From: Acidobacteriota bacterium
GTDB taxonomy: Bacteria > Acidobacteriota > Vicinamibacteria > Vicinamibacterales > 2-12-FULL-66-21
DNA: 64,000 bases
Assembly: GCA_003222675.1 (NCBI GenBank)
Contig: QHWT01000058.1
Coordinates: forward strand, 1 to 64,000
Direction: 5' to 3'
Position numbers and translations under genes: made by a program. Below the pieces are notes generated by a model. The model was not told the origin of the DNA and ran no database searches. It was given only the letters and a program-made list of their open reading frames with translations. The first letter of the stretch is position 1, and each line of letters starts with the position of its first letter. Positions 5,038-61,864 of this stretch are shown here, piece after piece.

Positions 5038-8019
5038 ATGGTGACACGGAACGAACTTGCGCTCGCAGTTGTTCTCATCCTGTGCGCCGCCGGCGTCGCC
5101 TACGGCCAGGTCGATCGCGCCAACCTCAATGGCACTGTGACGGATTCGAGTCGGGCCATGCTTGCGGACGCACACGTGGAGCTCGTGTCGCACGACAGCG
5201 GTCTGAAACGAGTCGTTACGACTGGGGCGACCGGCACCTACAGCATCACCGGCATACCAATCGGAACCTACGACCTGACGATTTCGCGGACCGGATTTCG
5301 CACCTTCGAGGTGAAAGGGATTCAGCTGGTCGTGGGCCAGACGCGGACGGTCGACGCGGAACTCCAGGTGGGCGCTGTCTCAGAAGAAGTTCAAGTGGAC
5401 GCGACCGTGGCGCCGCTGGAAACCACCAACGCCCGAGTAGGCGCTGTGCTCGAACATCAGCAGCTCGATGAGATCCCGGTCAACGGTCGGAACTGGGCCA
5501 CGCTGGAGATCCTGGCTCCGGGAGCGATCAACTCCGGCCGCGGCGGCCAGCAGGACATCCGATTCTTCGGTCGAGGACGCGACGACAACAACTTCACCTT
5601 CGACGGAATCGACGCGACCGGCGTTCAGGAACAGAGTCAGAAGGCCGACGCGCGCTTGAACATTTCGCTGGAATCGATTGCCGAGTTCCGCGTCGAATCG
5701 GCGGTCTATACCGCGGAGAGCGGTTCGTCCGGCGGCGCGCAGGTGAATGCCGTATCCAAGAGCGGAACCAACACGTTTCACGGAGCGGGCTTCGATTTCT
5801 TCCGGGACAGCATGTTCGATTCGCGCTCGCCATTCGACCCCCCGGAGATCCTCCCGTTCCGCATGAACCAGTTCGGCGTCAGCCTCGGCGGGCCCATCGC
5901 GCGCAATCGCACGTTCTTTTTCGTCAATTACGAAGCGATCAGGCAAACCCAGACGGAAACCATCGTCGGGTTCGTGCCGAACGCGTCCTTCCGAGGCGCG
6001 GCTGTGGCGGTCTCTCCCGCGCTCAAATCGATCGTCGACTCCTGGCCGCAGGGCCAGACGCCTGTCGATGACATCACGGATCTGTACAAGGCGCCGGGCA
6101 TCAACTCGGTTCGCGAAGACAGCGTGACCGGACGCTTCGACCACAGCCTCAGCGATCGCACCTCGATGTTCGTCCGCTACAACATCGACGACGTCTCGAT
6201 CGACAAACCGTTCGATCCGGTCGGCGCGCGCGACACGGAGAAGATCCGACCGTCGAATCTTGCCGTCCAGTTGATGCACATCTTTTCGGTCCAGGCCGTC
6301 AACGAAACGAAGTTCGGCATCAATCGTTCGACATTCCACCATCCCGTGCTCGGCACTTCACCGGTCGCCGTGTCGAGCGTGCCGGGATTCAGCGACCTCG
6401 ATCCGGACCAGCTCGATCTGGAGATCGGCACGACGTTTTCGGGCAGCGATAATCTGAGCATCATCCAGGGGCGCCACACGTTCAAAGTGGGCGCCGAGGT
6501 CAGGCGCATTCATCTCGACAACACGAGCGTCGGGATTGCCGTCTCGACGATCGCCTTCAACAGCCCGGACGATTTCGTCAACAATCGCATCGATTCGGTC
6601 AGCGTGGACGATGTGCTGGGGCTGGGCCGGCTGCGCCGGACATTCTGGATGGGTTACGGTCAGGATGAGTTCAAGGTCCGTCCCAACCTCACGATGAATC
6701 TCGGCGTCCGCTATGAGTACTACACGGTGATGACGGAAGCGAGCGGACACACCGCGGTGGTGGACTTCGCCTGCGGCGGCTTCTGTCCACCGGGTACACC
6801 AATGTACTCACCGGATCGGAATAACTTTGCGCCGCGACTGAGCGTCGCCTGGCTGCCGGGTGGAGCCGATGGACGGACGACGATCCGCACCGGCTTCGGC
6901 ATGTACTACAGCGCGAATCAGAACGATGACTTCAGCGATCCTCACGAGAGCACGGCCGCGCGCTTTGCGCTCTCGTCGGCGGATGTGCCGAATCTCTCGT
7001 ATCCTCTGACGCCTTTCCTGGGCCTGCTGCAGGATCAAGGCGCCAGCCCGAAGGGAATCGATCGGCATCGCCAGGACGGCTACTACGAGAACTGGGATCT
7101 TTTGATCCAGCGGCAGATGCCGGCCAGCTTCATCGCCCAGGTGGGCTACATCGGCAGTGAAGGGCACGATCTGTTTGGCGGCCGTCAGGTCAACCTCAAG
7201 GATCCACTCACGGGCAAGCGGCCGCTGCCGCAATTCGGCCAGTTCCAGATCAAATACAACGACAACAACAGCAACTACCATGCGCTGCTGGCATCCTTGC
7301 ATCGTTCGTTCATGACCGGGTGGTCCTGGCAGGCGCAGTACATCTGGTCCCACGCCATCACCGACGGTACCGGCGGAACGGGAGAGACGGTGCAGGTCCA
7401 GAACGCCTCGTGCCGCGTCTGCGACCGGAGCGATGCGACCTTCGACGTGCGTCACAACTTCACGACGAATTGGGTGTACCAGCTTCCATTTGGCCCGGGC
7501 CGCAGCCACTTGAACGCAACAGGCGTGGCGGGCACTCTGATCGGCGGGTGGCAACTGAGCGGAATCGTCACGGCCCGAACGGGTCTTCCGATCAACATCA
7601 CTGTGACCCGAAAAGCGTCGGACATGCTGGACGGCAACAACAGGAATCAGCGGCCCGATCTGGTTCCGGGCGTTCCGATCTACCCGACGAATCAGACCAT
7701 CGACAACTGGCTGAATCCTGCGGCCTTTGCCGTGCCCGCGAAGGGCACGTGGGGCAACCTGGGACGCAACGTCGCCCGCGGTCCCGGCTACTGGGAGGCC
7801 GACGCCGCGCTCGAGAAGACGACGCCCATTGGAGGCAAAACGAACCTGAAGTTCCGAGCGGAGGCGTTCAATCTGTTCAATCGGCCGATCTACGCCAATC
7901 CCGCCGCCAACATCTCGGCGACGTCCAGCTTTGGCCGGATCACGAGGGTGTTGAACCCTGGGGCCGTCGGGACCGGCACGCCGCGGCGCATTCAGCTCAT
8001 GGTCCGCGCCGAATTCTGA
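5038..8019 (+). CDS. TonB-dependent receptor, Oar-like, with carboxypeptidase regulatory domain
   Basis: 993 residues. Signal peptide 1-24 (cleavage after YGQ). A carboxypeptidase-regulatory-like beta-sandwich follows at about 27-110 (NGTVTDSSRAM...GTYSITGIPIGTYDLTI), then a plug domain at about 115-235 (NGRNW, FDGIDATGV, VNAVSKSGTN), and an outer-membrane beta-barrel to the C-terminal Phe (VRAEF). The start is fixed by GAGGAGG 8 bases upstream. The family imports large or scarce substrates through the outer membrane with TonB energy. The substrate is unknown, and no degradative enzyme lies immediately beside it. Confidence 0.93.
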   Translation: MVTRNELALAVVLILCAAGVAYGQVDRANLNGTVTDSSRAMLADAHVELVSHDSGLKRVVTTGATGTYSITGIPIGTYDLTISRTGFRTFEVKGIQLVVGQTRTVDAELQVGAVSEEVQVDATVAPLETTNARVGAVLEHQQLDEIPVNGRNWATLEILAPGAINSGRGGQQDIRFFGRGRDDNNFTFDGIDATGVQEQSQKADARLNISLESIAEFRVESAVYTAESGSSGGAQVNAVSKSGTNTFHGAGFDFFRDSMFDSRSPFDPPEILPFRMNQFGVSLGGPIARNRTFFFVNYEAIRQTQTETIVGFVPNASFRGAAVAVSPALKSIVDSWPQGQTPVDDITDLYKAPGINSVREDSVTGRFDHSLSDRTSMFVRYNIDDVSIDKPFDPVGARDTEKIRPSNLAVQLMHIFSVQAVNETKFGINRSTFHHPVLGTSPVAVSSVPGFSDLDPDQLDLEIGTTFSGSDNLSIIQGRHTFKVGAEVRRIHLDNTSVGIAVSTIAFNSPDDFVNNRIDSVSVDDVLGLGRLRRTFWMGYGQDEFKVRPNLTMNLGVRYEYYTVMTEASGHTAVVDFACGGFCPPGTPMYSPDRNNFAPRLSVAWLPGGADGRTTIRTGFGMYYSANQNDDFSDPHESTAARFALSSADVPNLSYPLTPFLGLLQDQGASPKGIDRHRQDGYYENWDLLIQRQMPASFIAQVGYIGSEGHDLFGGRQVNLKDPLTGKRPLPQFGQFQIKYNDNNSNYHALLASLHRSFMTGWSWQAQYIWSHAITDGTGGTGETVQVQNASCRVCDRSDATFDVRHNFTTNWVYQLPFGPGRSHLNATGVAGTLIGGWQLSGIVTARTGLPINITVTRKASDMLDGNNRNQRPDLVPGVPIYPTNQTIDNWLNPAAFAVPAKGTWGNLGRNVARGPGYWEADAALEKTTPIGGKTNLKFRAEAFNLFNRPIYANPAANISATSSFGRITRVLNPGAVGTGTPRRIQLMVRAEF

Positions 8020-54977: not shown

Positions 54978-55257
54978 GAGGAGGACGCCGCGAAAGCAGG
55001 TTCCCACGTTTTCGAGCGTGGCGCTCGGCTGGGCGGATTCAACCAGCAGCTGCGGCAGCGGGCGCTTTCTCCACGGCTCCCGCACGCTGCCGGCAACAAC
55101 TCTCTGGGATTCGAACACCGCGAATGCTTCGAAGCTACTGCTGGTGTTGGTCTCGCGCGAGTCGGGTTGAGCGGGCTGGCGACGGAGCGATTGAATCGCC
55201 TTTTTAGAACTCGAGAAACACCCGGAAAATGTGACTGTTGAAAGGCTCTGTGAGGGA
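54978..55257. other. Region without a supported gene, next to the att-like remnant
   Basis: About 280 bases with reading frames on both strands, but none with a recognisable domain or a convincing start. It may be part of a lost mobile element, given the tRNA-Ser end that follows. Confidence 0.35.
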
Positions 55258-55278
55258 TGGCGGAGAGAGTGGGATTCG
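55258..55278 (-). other. tRNA-Ser 3'-end fragment, possible attachment site
   Basis: On the minus strand the 21 bases read CGAATCCCACTCTCTCCGCC then A. This equals the T-arm, the 3' acceptor strand, discriminator G and encoded CCA typical of tRNA-Ser. The rest of the tRNA is not present on either side. Integrases that target tRNA genes leave such 3' duplications, so this marks a possible att scar. The spurious reading frame AERVGF it creates is a well-known artefact. Confidence 0.6.
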
Positions 55279-55426
55279 GACTCTCAGGCATCCTTTAGAT
55301 TCTGTAACTTACAGAAACCACATTGCCGTGAATGCCAGGAATGCCGGCGATGCCGTCGACCCTTGCACGCTATTGCACGCCGGCAGAGCTGTTCGCCACG
55401 ACTTTTCTCGACATCCCAAAGTGGCA

Positions 55427-55440
55427 TATACTTATGTATA
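55427..55440. promoter_or_regulatory. Candidate vapBC operator/-10 region
   Basis: TATAC-TTAT-GTATA is an AT-rich inverted repeat 28 bases before the antitoxin start. Antitoxins of this type bind such repeats to repress their own operon. Confidence 0.4.
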
Positions 55441-55468
55441 CGGCGCGGTTTCACGGAGGCATCCCATC

Positions 55469-55696
55469 ATGCAGCGACGAGCCAAGGTGTTCAGGAACAA
55501 TCGGAGCCAGGCCGTACGGTTGCCGAAGGAGTTCCAGTTCAACACCGACGAAGTGTTCATTCGCAAAGAAGGCGAAGAGGTGATCCTGTCGCCCCGCCCC
55601 ATGGATTGGGGGCCGTATCTCGATCGCGGTCCGATCGCGTCGGACGCCTTCATGGAAAACGTCGAGGACCTGCCCGTCCAGGAGTGCGAGCCCTGA
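55469..55696 (+). CDS. vapB: VapB-type antitoxin (AbrB/SpoVT fold)
   Basis: 75 residues from the ATG at 55469 behind GGAGG. The N-terminal swapped-hairpin DNA-binding fold is clear (KVFRNNRSQAVRLPKEFQFNTDEVFIRKEGEEVILSPRP). The acidic C-terminal tail (ASDAFMENVEDLPVQE) should wrap the toxin. Its stop overlaps the toxin start by one base (TGATG). Confidence 0.88.
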   Translation: MQRRAKVFRNNRSQAVRLPKEFQFNTDEVFIRKEGEEVILSPRPMDWGPYLDRGPIASDAFMENVEDLPVQECEP

Positions 55697-56133
55697 TGGC
55701 CCGCTACATGCTGGATACGGACACGTGCTCCTACATCATGAAGCGCTCGAACCAGACCGTTGTAAAACGGTTACGTGCTGTCGCTGTCGCGGACGTCTGC
55801 ATGTCGGTCATGACCAAATCCGAGCTGCTCTACGGTGTTGAAGTGTCGCCGCGCCGAGAGCAGGATGCCACCGCGCTGCGGGCGTTCCTTCCGCACGTCG
55901 AAGTTCTCGAGTTTCCCGCCGCCGCCGCTACCCACTATGCCGCGATACGGGCTGACCTGAAGAAACGGGGCCAGATGATCGGAGCCAATGATCTCTTTAT
56001 CGCCGCACATGCACACACTCTCGGACTCAGGCTCGTCACGAACAACACCGCCGAGTTCGGCCGCGTGAAGGGTCTGACGCTCGAGAACTGGACGCTTGCT
56101 GTTCGTCGCTCTCGTTCGAGAGAAGACAAATAG
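55696..56133 (+). CDS. vapC: VapC-type PIN-domain ribonuclease toxin
   Basis: 145 residues. Acidic centre of the PIN fold: D7 (MLDTD), E43 (KSELLYGVE) and D99 (GANDLFIAAHA), plus NNTAEF at 116-121. Family members cleave tRNA or rRNA when the antitoxin is degraded. It is coupled to vapB. The last ten residues are basic. Located beside an att-like tRNA scar, which fits a horizontally gained module. Confidence 0.9.
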   Translation: MARYMLDTDTCSYIMKRSNQTVVKRLRAVAVADVCMSVMTKSELLYGVEVSPRREQDATALRAFLPHVEVLEFPAAAATHYAAIRADLKKRGQMIGANDLFIAAHAHTLGLRLVTNNTAEFGRVKGLTLENWTLAVRRSRSREDK

Positions 56134-56160
56134 CTCGCGCCGATCTAACCGTCCCACGTG

Positions 56161-56718
56161 ATGCGGCCCAAGCCGATCAAGCCCGAACAGCGTCTGGAGG
56201 TCAGCCTGATGGGCCGTGAGCGCGACCTGATCATTGAGCGGACGGTAATCGATCCTGAGTTGGAAGAGCGTCTCCGAGCCGCACCGGCGCTCGGATCGCG
56301 AATCGTCGTTCAGCTGACGCTCGACGAAGTGGACGATCTCGCCGGCCATGTTGCGGCCGAAGCGAATCATTGTACGGAGTCACGCGTGCGTCGAGCGCTC
56401 GAAGCTGTGTACGACCGACTTGCAGAAATTGAGGCCCGGTTCACGAATGAAGAAGCTGCGCCGGGCGCAGCAATCGAGGGGGGCCAGCCGTTCACTGCCA
56501 AGCAGGGGCAGTACCTCGCGTTCATCTACTACTACACCAAGATTCACGGCACGCCACCCGCCGAAGCAGACTTTCAACAATTCTTCCGTGTGACGCCGCC
56601 CGTGGTGCACCAGATGATCAAGACGCTGCAGGCACACGGATTCATCGACCGCGAACGTGGGAAGGCGCGCTCGATCAAGCTTCGCCTCACGAGAGCGCAA
56701 TTGCCCGACTTGGAGTAG
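56161..56718 (+). CDS. Hypothetical protein with C-terminal LexA-type winged helix
   Basis: 185 residues. Residues about 1-100 form an alpha/beta domain (ERDLIIERTVIDPELEERL...VQLTLDEVDDLAGHVAAEAN). Residues about 115-180 form a winged helix like the LexA N-terminal domain (TAKQGQYLAFIYYYTKIHGTPPAEADFQQFFRVTPPVVHQMIKTLQAHGFIDRERGKARSIKL). Probably DNA binding. It lies 27 bases after vapC on the same strand. Confidence 0.72.
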   Translation: MRPKPIKPEQRLEVSLMGRERDLIIERTVIDPELEERLRAAPALGSRIVVQLTLDEVDDLAGHVAAEANHCTESRVRRALEAVYDRLAEIEARFTNEEAAPGAAIEGGQPFTAKQGQYLAFIYYYTKIHGTPPAEADFQQFFRVTPPVVHQMIKTLQAHGFIDRERGKARSIKLRLTRAQLPDLE

Positions 56719-60793: not shown

Positions 60794-61357
60794 TCATCGT
60801 GATGCGTCAACTTCGTGAGCGCGCACAATGAAACGGTCCGGCGCCGGACCAATATAAGAAAAGGGAAAGCACGTGATCAGCGTCAGCGAACGTTCGTTCG
60901 TCGGCTGAATCACCTCGAGGTCAGTCGGTCGCACGACTGCCGCCCATTCCACTAAGTACTCGAAATCGTCGGTGCGGGTTTTCAACGTGATCGCGTCGCC
61001 CGCGCGAACTCGATTCAACGGCCGGAAGAACGTGTCGCGATGGCCCGCGAGCACCACATTGCCAGGCGCGCCGGGCAGCGCAGTGCCCGTAAGGTGCCCG
61101 ACCGCACGTTGAAGAATAGCAGGCGAATTGCCCTGCGCGACAATCGCCCGCAGCCCAAGACGCGGGATCTGAATCTCGCCGATGACTCCGCCATCAGCGA
61201 TCGTTTGTGTGGACGACGATGGATCCGATCTCGCACGCTCCAGTCGTCGATGCTCGATCGCCTGATAGGCCTGGATATCGATGGCGACGTAGCCGGCGTA
61301 GCCGAGCCCAAGCAGACCCGCCATGAGGCACACGCGAGCGGGGAGCAGCGGGATCAC
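60794..61357 (-). CDS. Sortase (class D/E-like)
   Basis: 187 residues. An N-terminal membrane helix lies at about 8-26. The sortase barrel holds catalytic H106 (LAGHRDTFF), C163 (TLITC) and R175 (APDRFIV). Such transpeptidases cut LPxTG-type motifs; in diderms they are unusual. The adjacent upstream gene (61409) encodes a protein with a C-terminal LPQTA sorting signal, the likely substrate. The downstream neighbour on the same strand is the PAS-GGDEF gene. Confidence 0.9.
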   Translation of the reverse strand: MIPLLPARVCLMAGLLGLGYAGYVAIDIQAYQAIEHRRLERARSDPSSSTQTIADGGVIGEIQIPRLGLRAIVAQGNSPAILQRAVGHLTGTALPGAPGNVVLAGHRDTFFRPLNRVRAGDAITLKTRTDDFEYLVEWAAVVRPTDLEVIQPTNERSLTLITCFPFSYIGPAPDRFIVRAHEVDASR

Positions 61358-61408
61358 ACAGCACTTCCTCAGGCCCGCCGCAGTCCGGCGGCGCGACAGC
61401 CAGATTTC

Positions 61409-61864
61409 CTACGCGCTGGATCCGCGGCGGAGTCTGCCAAAGATCAGCAGGCCGAAGGCCACACCGATGGACACAACACTGAGCAACACGATCAGCGGCA
61501 GCGCGCTGGCCGTCTGTGGCAGGCGAGCAGCGTGGCTCGTCTTCTGCACAGGTCGGGTGACGCCAGCAGTGCCCGTTGCCGACACACGCGCCACGACATT
61601 CGGCAGAGCCCTGGTCTGGATGACGGCAGCGATTGGTGCGTCTTTCTCGTCGGGTGTCACGGCCACGATCGGCACCGTCTCAAGATCGGTGAGGCTGAGG
61701 CTCGTGACGTCGACGGCAATCGCCGGCACGACGGCCTTCGACGCGTTCGCCAACTGCACTGAGTTCTTGTTCCGTTCGTCCGCCCGAACACTGGTCGCCA
61801 GGACGAACGCGAGCACCGTCACCGCCACCAGAATCCAGATTGTTTTCTTGATCATCACACTCAT
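61409..61864 (-). CDS. Secreted LPxTG-type protein, likely sortase substrate
   Basis: 151 residues from the ATG at 61864 (an alternative ATG lies at 61855). The signal peptide contains IWILVAVTVLAFVLATSVRA. A short Val/Ala-rich mature region follows. The C-terminus has the three-part sorting signal: LPQTA at 115-119, a hydrophobic helix (LPLIVLLSVVSIGVAFGLLIF) and the basic tail GRLRRGSSA. It is encoded 51 bases ahead of the sortase gene on the same strand. The mature part has no known domain. Confidence 0.8.
   Translation of the reverse strand: MSVMIKKTIWILVAVTVLAFVLATSVRADERNKNSVQLANASKAVVPAIAVDVTSLSLTDLETVPIVAVTPDEKDAPIAAVIQTRALPNVVARVSATGTAGVTRPVQKTSHAARLPQTASALPLIVLLSVVSIGVAFGLLIFGRLRRGSSA

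Follow-up and report, generated by a model that had tools for sequence, protein, structure and literature searches.

The closest described relatives of the locus considered here are sortase systems of Gram-positive bacteria. In Bacillus anthracis, SrtC cleaves LPNTA at the T-A bond, with m-Dpm serving as the acceptor (PMC3297441). Class D sortases have been solved from B. anthracis (SrtD, 2LN7) and Clostridium perfringens (SrtD, 4D70), and class GN sortases (TIGR03784, marine_sortase) are found in Gram-negative-type genomes. Sortases as yet have no settled role in bacteria that possess an outer membrane. A 2011 paper already tabulated the sortase genes of one acidobacterium, giving six for Solibacter (PMC3174227). 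Among open-licence papers, we found none on an acidobacterial sortase-substrate pair, on the substrate family or on the gene set described below.

We suggest, with confidence and doubt in equal measure, that a hitherto undescribed sortase system of Acidobacteriota may attach members of a new beta-domain protein family, with a VWA protein as partner, to the thin peptidoglycan layer in the periplasm of these two-membrane cells. In some lineages, including the one studied here, only a minimal anchored linker would be kept.

The window, by which we mean the whole stretch of 64,000 nucleotides that was analysed, lies on one contig (C28) of an Acidobacteriota genome of 7.16 Mb. Relatives from the same order include the Acidobacteria MAGs fen_299 and RIFCSPLOWO2_12_FULL_68_19. 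An earlier note on this DNA had described TonB receptors and ADOP genes around the sortase pair, and the window indeed carries OMP beta-barrel/TonB-type receptor and MacB/FtsX (ADOP-type) genes. Omp85 is present in the genome. The Pfam model of LptD found no match in the genome, but we do not take this to mean that an outer membrane is lacking; the assignment of that membrane rests instead on Omp85 and the OMP barrels. The note had also regarded sortases as rare in diderms. This generalization fails for the Acidobacteriota, given that 81 of 396 sampled genomes of the phylum have a sortase and that those of Solibacter had been tabulated (PMC3174227).

Sortase and candidate substrate in the window

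The sortase gene (60794..61357, minus strand) encodes a protein of 187 aa from a GTG start, with an N-terminal membrane helix. The product matches the Pfam Sortase profile (PF04203) at 107 bits, against a cut-off of 26.6. Its catalytic residues H106 (61040-61042), C163 (60869-60871) and R175 (60833-60835, all on the minus strand) are invariant among relatives in two alignments of 21 and 59 sequences, which upholds the earlier description of a complete sortase. These residues are numbered from the GTG and appear as H110, C167 and R179 in alignments A1 and A5.

The enzyme is class D-like and is not a filed member of class D. It scores 144.3 with the SrtD model NF058671, exceeding the cut-off of 140 by 4 bits, and most of the relatives tested fall just below that cut-off. 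With the NCBIfam class D model NF033746 it reaches 130.6, under the curated cut-off of 165, and the sortases of relatives score 118-131. The class GN model TIGR03784 gave 91.7 against a cut-off of 158.25. In a sequence comparison with solved structures, the class D enzymes 2LN7 and 4D70 rank first. An AF2 model of the window sortase (pLDDT 93.6) has 4D70 as its first match by fold, with a Z of 23.4 and 1.5 Å over 151 residues.

The sortase sits 51 bp downstream of the gene for its candidate substrate (61409..61864, minus strand). This gene encodes 151 aa, comprising a signal peptide, a short linker, LPQTA, a hydrophobic helix and a basic tail, and appears to be a reduced form of a longer protein. 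The LPQTA motif, at residues 115-119 (61508..61522, minus strand), is a direct reading and corresponds to an LPxTA motif conserved in relatives; the cut is predicted between T and A. From LPQTAS, the C-terminus continues through the hydrophobic helix to the tail RLRRGSSA, and the ORF thus has all the parts expected of a sortase substrate (signal peptide, LPxT motif, hydrophobic helix, basic C-terminal tail). The linker includes TVPIVAVTP (61652..61678, minus strand), a motif retained from the full-length family and found in 27 of 100 substrate ORFs, versus 0.1% in shuffles.

A profile made from the substrates of relatives only, with the window sequence left out (A2), picks out the window substrate from the entire 7.16-Mb genome (E = 5.6e-15), the match covering the linker and sorting signal. 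Direct reading and this match together confirm the small secreted protein with a full sorting signal that the note had placed beside the sortase. The sole other match of the A2 profile in the genome has E = 0.31 and is out of frame within an ADOP gene. A sorting-signal profile, which has the window sequence as one of its rows, gave weak matches in the genome besides the window substrate, the best of them on contig C98. This C98 match was ruled out as a second sorting-signal protein, because it reads an ADOP gene in the wrong frame.

The gene set in the Acidobacteriota

In relatives, the usual gene order is substrate, TIGR03436 VWA protein and sortase. The substrate of the full set consists of a signal peptide, a beta domain, a linker and an LPxTA sorting signal. 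The middle gene belongs to the acidobacterial VWA family TIGR03436, scoring 199 against a cut-off of 81.25. Of 100 relatives, 23 have a sortase homologue, in most cases near an LPxTA ORF; among named genomes, 80 sortase loci were identified. Neighbourhoods were counted in the 72 named relatives with at least 2.5 kb upstream of the sortase. An LPxT-type sorting-signal ORF accompanies the sortase in 70 of them, a substrate with an N-terminal beta domain lies beside it in 64, and a TIGR03436 VWA gene is alongside in 50. The fifth position of the motif is A in 67 of the 75 LPxT motifs of relatives. Judged by sequence comparison, the full set of substrate, TIGR03436 VWA protein and class D-like sortase is Acidobacteriota-wide.

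The predicted pairing of sortase and substrate is well supported. The proposal that this diderm sortase has an LPxTA substrate of its own therefore stands, and extends to the relatives. The earlier note had been prepared to abandon it if the LPQTA gene was not kept beside the sortase or if the motif had changed in orthologues; neither is the case, because the substrate-sortase pair is conserved.

Across the 396 sampled genomes, the beta domain occurs in 44, of which 39 also have a sortase (Fisher p = 8e-26, a value that is too small because the genomes are related). Physical linkage agrees in direction with this statistic, with 37 of 62 beta-domain matches lying 5 kb or less from a sortase. 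Five genomes that lack a sortase match served as a control: the beta-domain proteins read from them have no LPxTA sorting signal at their ends. Two entries titled Candidatus Eisenbacteria (L113 and L129) have a sortase with a different substrate architecture that ends in LPETAS.

The beta domain has about 118 aa; it is confidently modelled (pLDDT 90.3) and in most members has no assigned family. There was no confident match to it in Pfam, NCBIfam or the PDB, a fold search of the PDB gave nothing below E 0.8, and the plasmid collection contained no match. DUF2911 (PF11138) shows a weak likeness (E 1.2e-6 at best) to 16 of 69 members and leaves most without a match. A PH-like Rpn13 fold was considered and set aside, the best VIA Z of 2.9 being too weak to use.

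The reduced pair

The signal peptide, the linker TVPIVAVTPDEK and the sorting signal of the window substrate align with those of relatives L094 and L065. In the same alignment, about 98 beta-domain residues are missing in frame from the window protein, at a junction between codons 33 and 34 (61765..61766, minus strand). The note had seen no recognised domain in the substrate; this is correct, because the N-terminal domain has been lost relative to relatives. The VWA gene is also absent from the pair. The gap between the stop of the substrate and the start of the sortase, where the TIGR03436 VWA gene lies in most relatives, is 51 bp here (61358..61408, minus strand). Contig C28 has no TIGR03436 match, versus about 30 over-cut-off places elsewhere in the genome, in which TIGR03436 VWA proteins are strongly expanded. 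Searches of the genome with the A2 profile and the beta domain found no full-length substrate elsewhere.

In the sortase tree, the window groups with fen_299 (support 89/87) inside a clade of 19 rows (99/98). The remaining members of this clade for the most part carry the full set, and the window pair is therefore best read as secondarily reduced. The fen_299 locus (L030) has two consecutive sorting-signal ORFs, at about 5715-6419 and 6454-6858; the second is without the beta domain and is another shortened substrate.

The genome has a second sortase (C123:52121-52672), which is sister to the sortase of a genome of the same family, G010 (100/100). Unlike its sister in G010, the C123 sortase has neither a sorting-signal substrate nor a VWA gene close to it. 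It could process the window substrate in place of the window sortase.

A different view of the window pair is that it is a relic, unused and decaying after the loss of the beta domain and VWA gene. These losses would fit decay, as would the orphan state of the C123 sortase and the other searched genome of the genus (88% complete), which shows no sortase match. However, the catalytic residues and membrane helix of the sortase, and the sorting signal and linker motif of the substrate, are all intact. The substrate ORF has a normal coding pattern (codon GC 0.62/0.48/0.78), and short sorting-signal ORFs occur also in relatives L131 and L139. We consider decay unlikely, though worth keeping in mind.

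Anchoring, acceptor and known systems

The two genes probably form a dedicated pair, in which the class D-like sortase would cut LPQT|A and join the protein to meso-diaminopimelate of the periplasmic peptidoglycan. We infer the cleavage, the acceptor and the location, as well as the continued activity of the reduced pair. In this scheme, Sec would export the substrate, which would remain tethered to the inner membrane by its C-terminal helix. The sortase, anchored in the same membrane, would attack the LPQT|A bond via C163, and the acyl-enzyme would be passed to an amino group, most likely that of the meso-diaminopimelate side chain on lipid II. The product would be a protein covalently attached to the periplasmic peptidoglycan; in the window, it would be a linker of about 90 residues.

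The genome's own MurE has a DNPR motif, which marks MurE enzymes that add meso-diaminopimelate. This motif and the analogy with B. anthracis SrtC make meso-diaminopimelate of the periplasmic peptidoglycan the likely acceptor. The sortase might instead only cut and free the protein into the periplasm, or join it to something other than peptidoglycan, such as an outer-membrane protein or the VWA protein, whose gene is conserved alongside in 50 of the 72 relatives. We regard this as rather improbable, given that m-Dpm is the acceptor of the known sortase acting on LPNTA (PMC3297441) and that the DNPR motif is present in the host MurE.

It is very doubtful that the sortase is a pilus-building polymerase like the class C enzymes, with the lysine of EFVYPK in the beta domain as nucleophile. 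The beta domain does end in EFVYPK, and YPK occurs in pilin motifs. We reject polymerization mainly because this lysine varies, being K in 52 of 69 members and R, E, H or N in the other 17. The segment is also absent from the window protein, there is usually one sorting-signal protein per locus, and the best structural match is a class D enzyme, 4D70.

Crp/Fnr, DUF7662 and PAS-GGDEF genes are present in the run as the note had described, on the same strand and with short gaps, but the idea that Crp, DUF7662 and the diguanylate cyclase join the pair in a unit for surface anchoring under c-di-GMP or cNMP control can hardly be sustained, because conservation beside the sortase is lacking for all three (in the 72 named relatives, DUF7662 is found in 0, GGDEF in 2 and Crp in 5). 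Crp relatives in genomes of the same order are located elsewhere. The proposed functional linkage is thus not supported, and of the proposed order Crp-DUF7662-LPQTA-sortase, relatives keep the sorting-signal ORF with the sortase (70 of 72) but not Crp or DUF7662.

Elsewhere in the window, an ORF at 55231-56130 has a C-terminal PIN-domain match and is preceded by an overlapping ORF that resembles a VapB-type antitoxin; the two are likely a VapBC toxin-antitoxin pair. The protein encoded at 56158-56715 carries a LexA-type DNA-binding domain in its C-terminal part.

The conservation seen across a major soil phylum links the enzyme to its substrate, motif and partner gene, which turns the acceptor and the location into questions for ordinary experiments. 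Among known systems, the SrtD enzymes of B. anthracis and C. perfringens are the top sequence and fold matches to the window sortase, which differs from class D sortases in falling below the general NCBIfam cut-off for that class. Class GN sortases share with it the setting of a Gram-negative-type genome, but the window sortase is far under their cut-off. The LPxTA motif of the window substrate is shared with BasI and BasH, the LPNTA substrates of B. anthracis SrtC. The B. anthracis and C. perfringens systems belong to Gram-positive cells with a single membrane, whereas the system described here is found in a diderm phylum, has a substrate family with another domain and is accompanied by a VWA gene.
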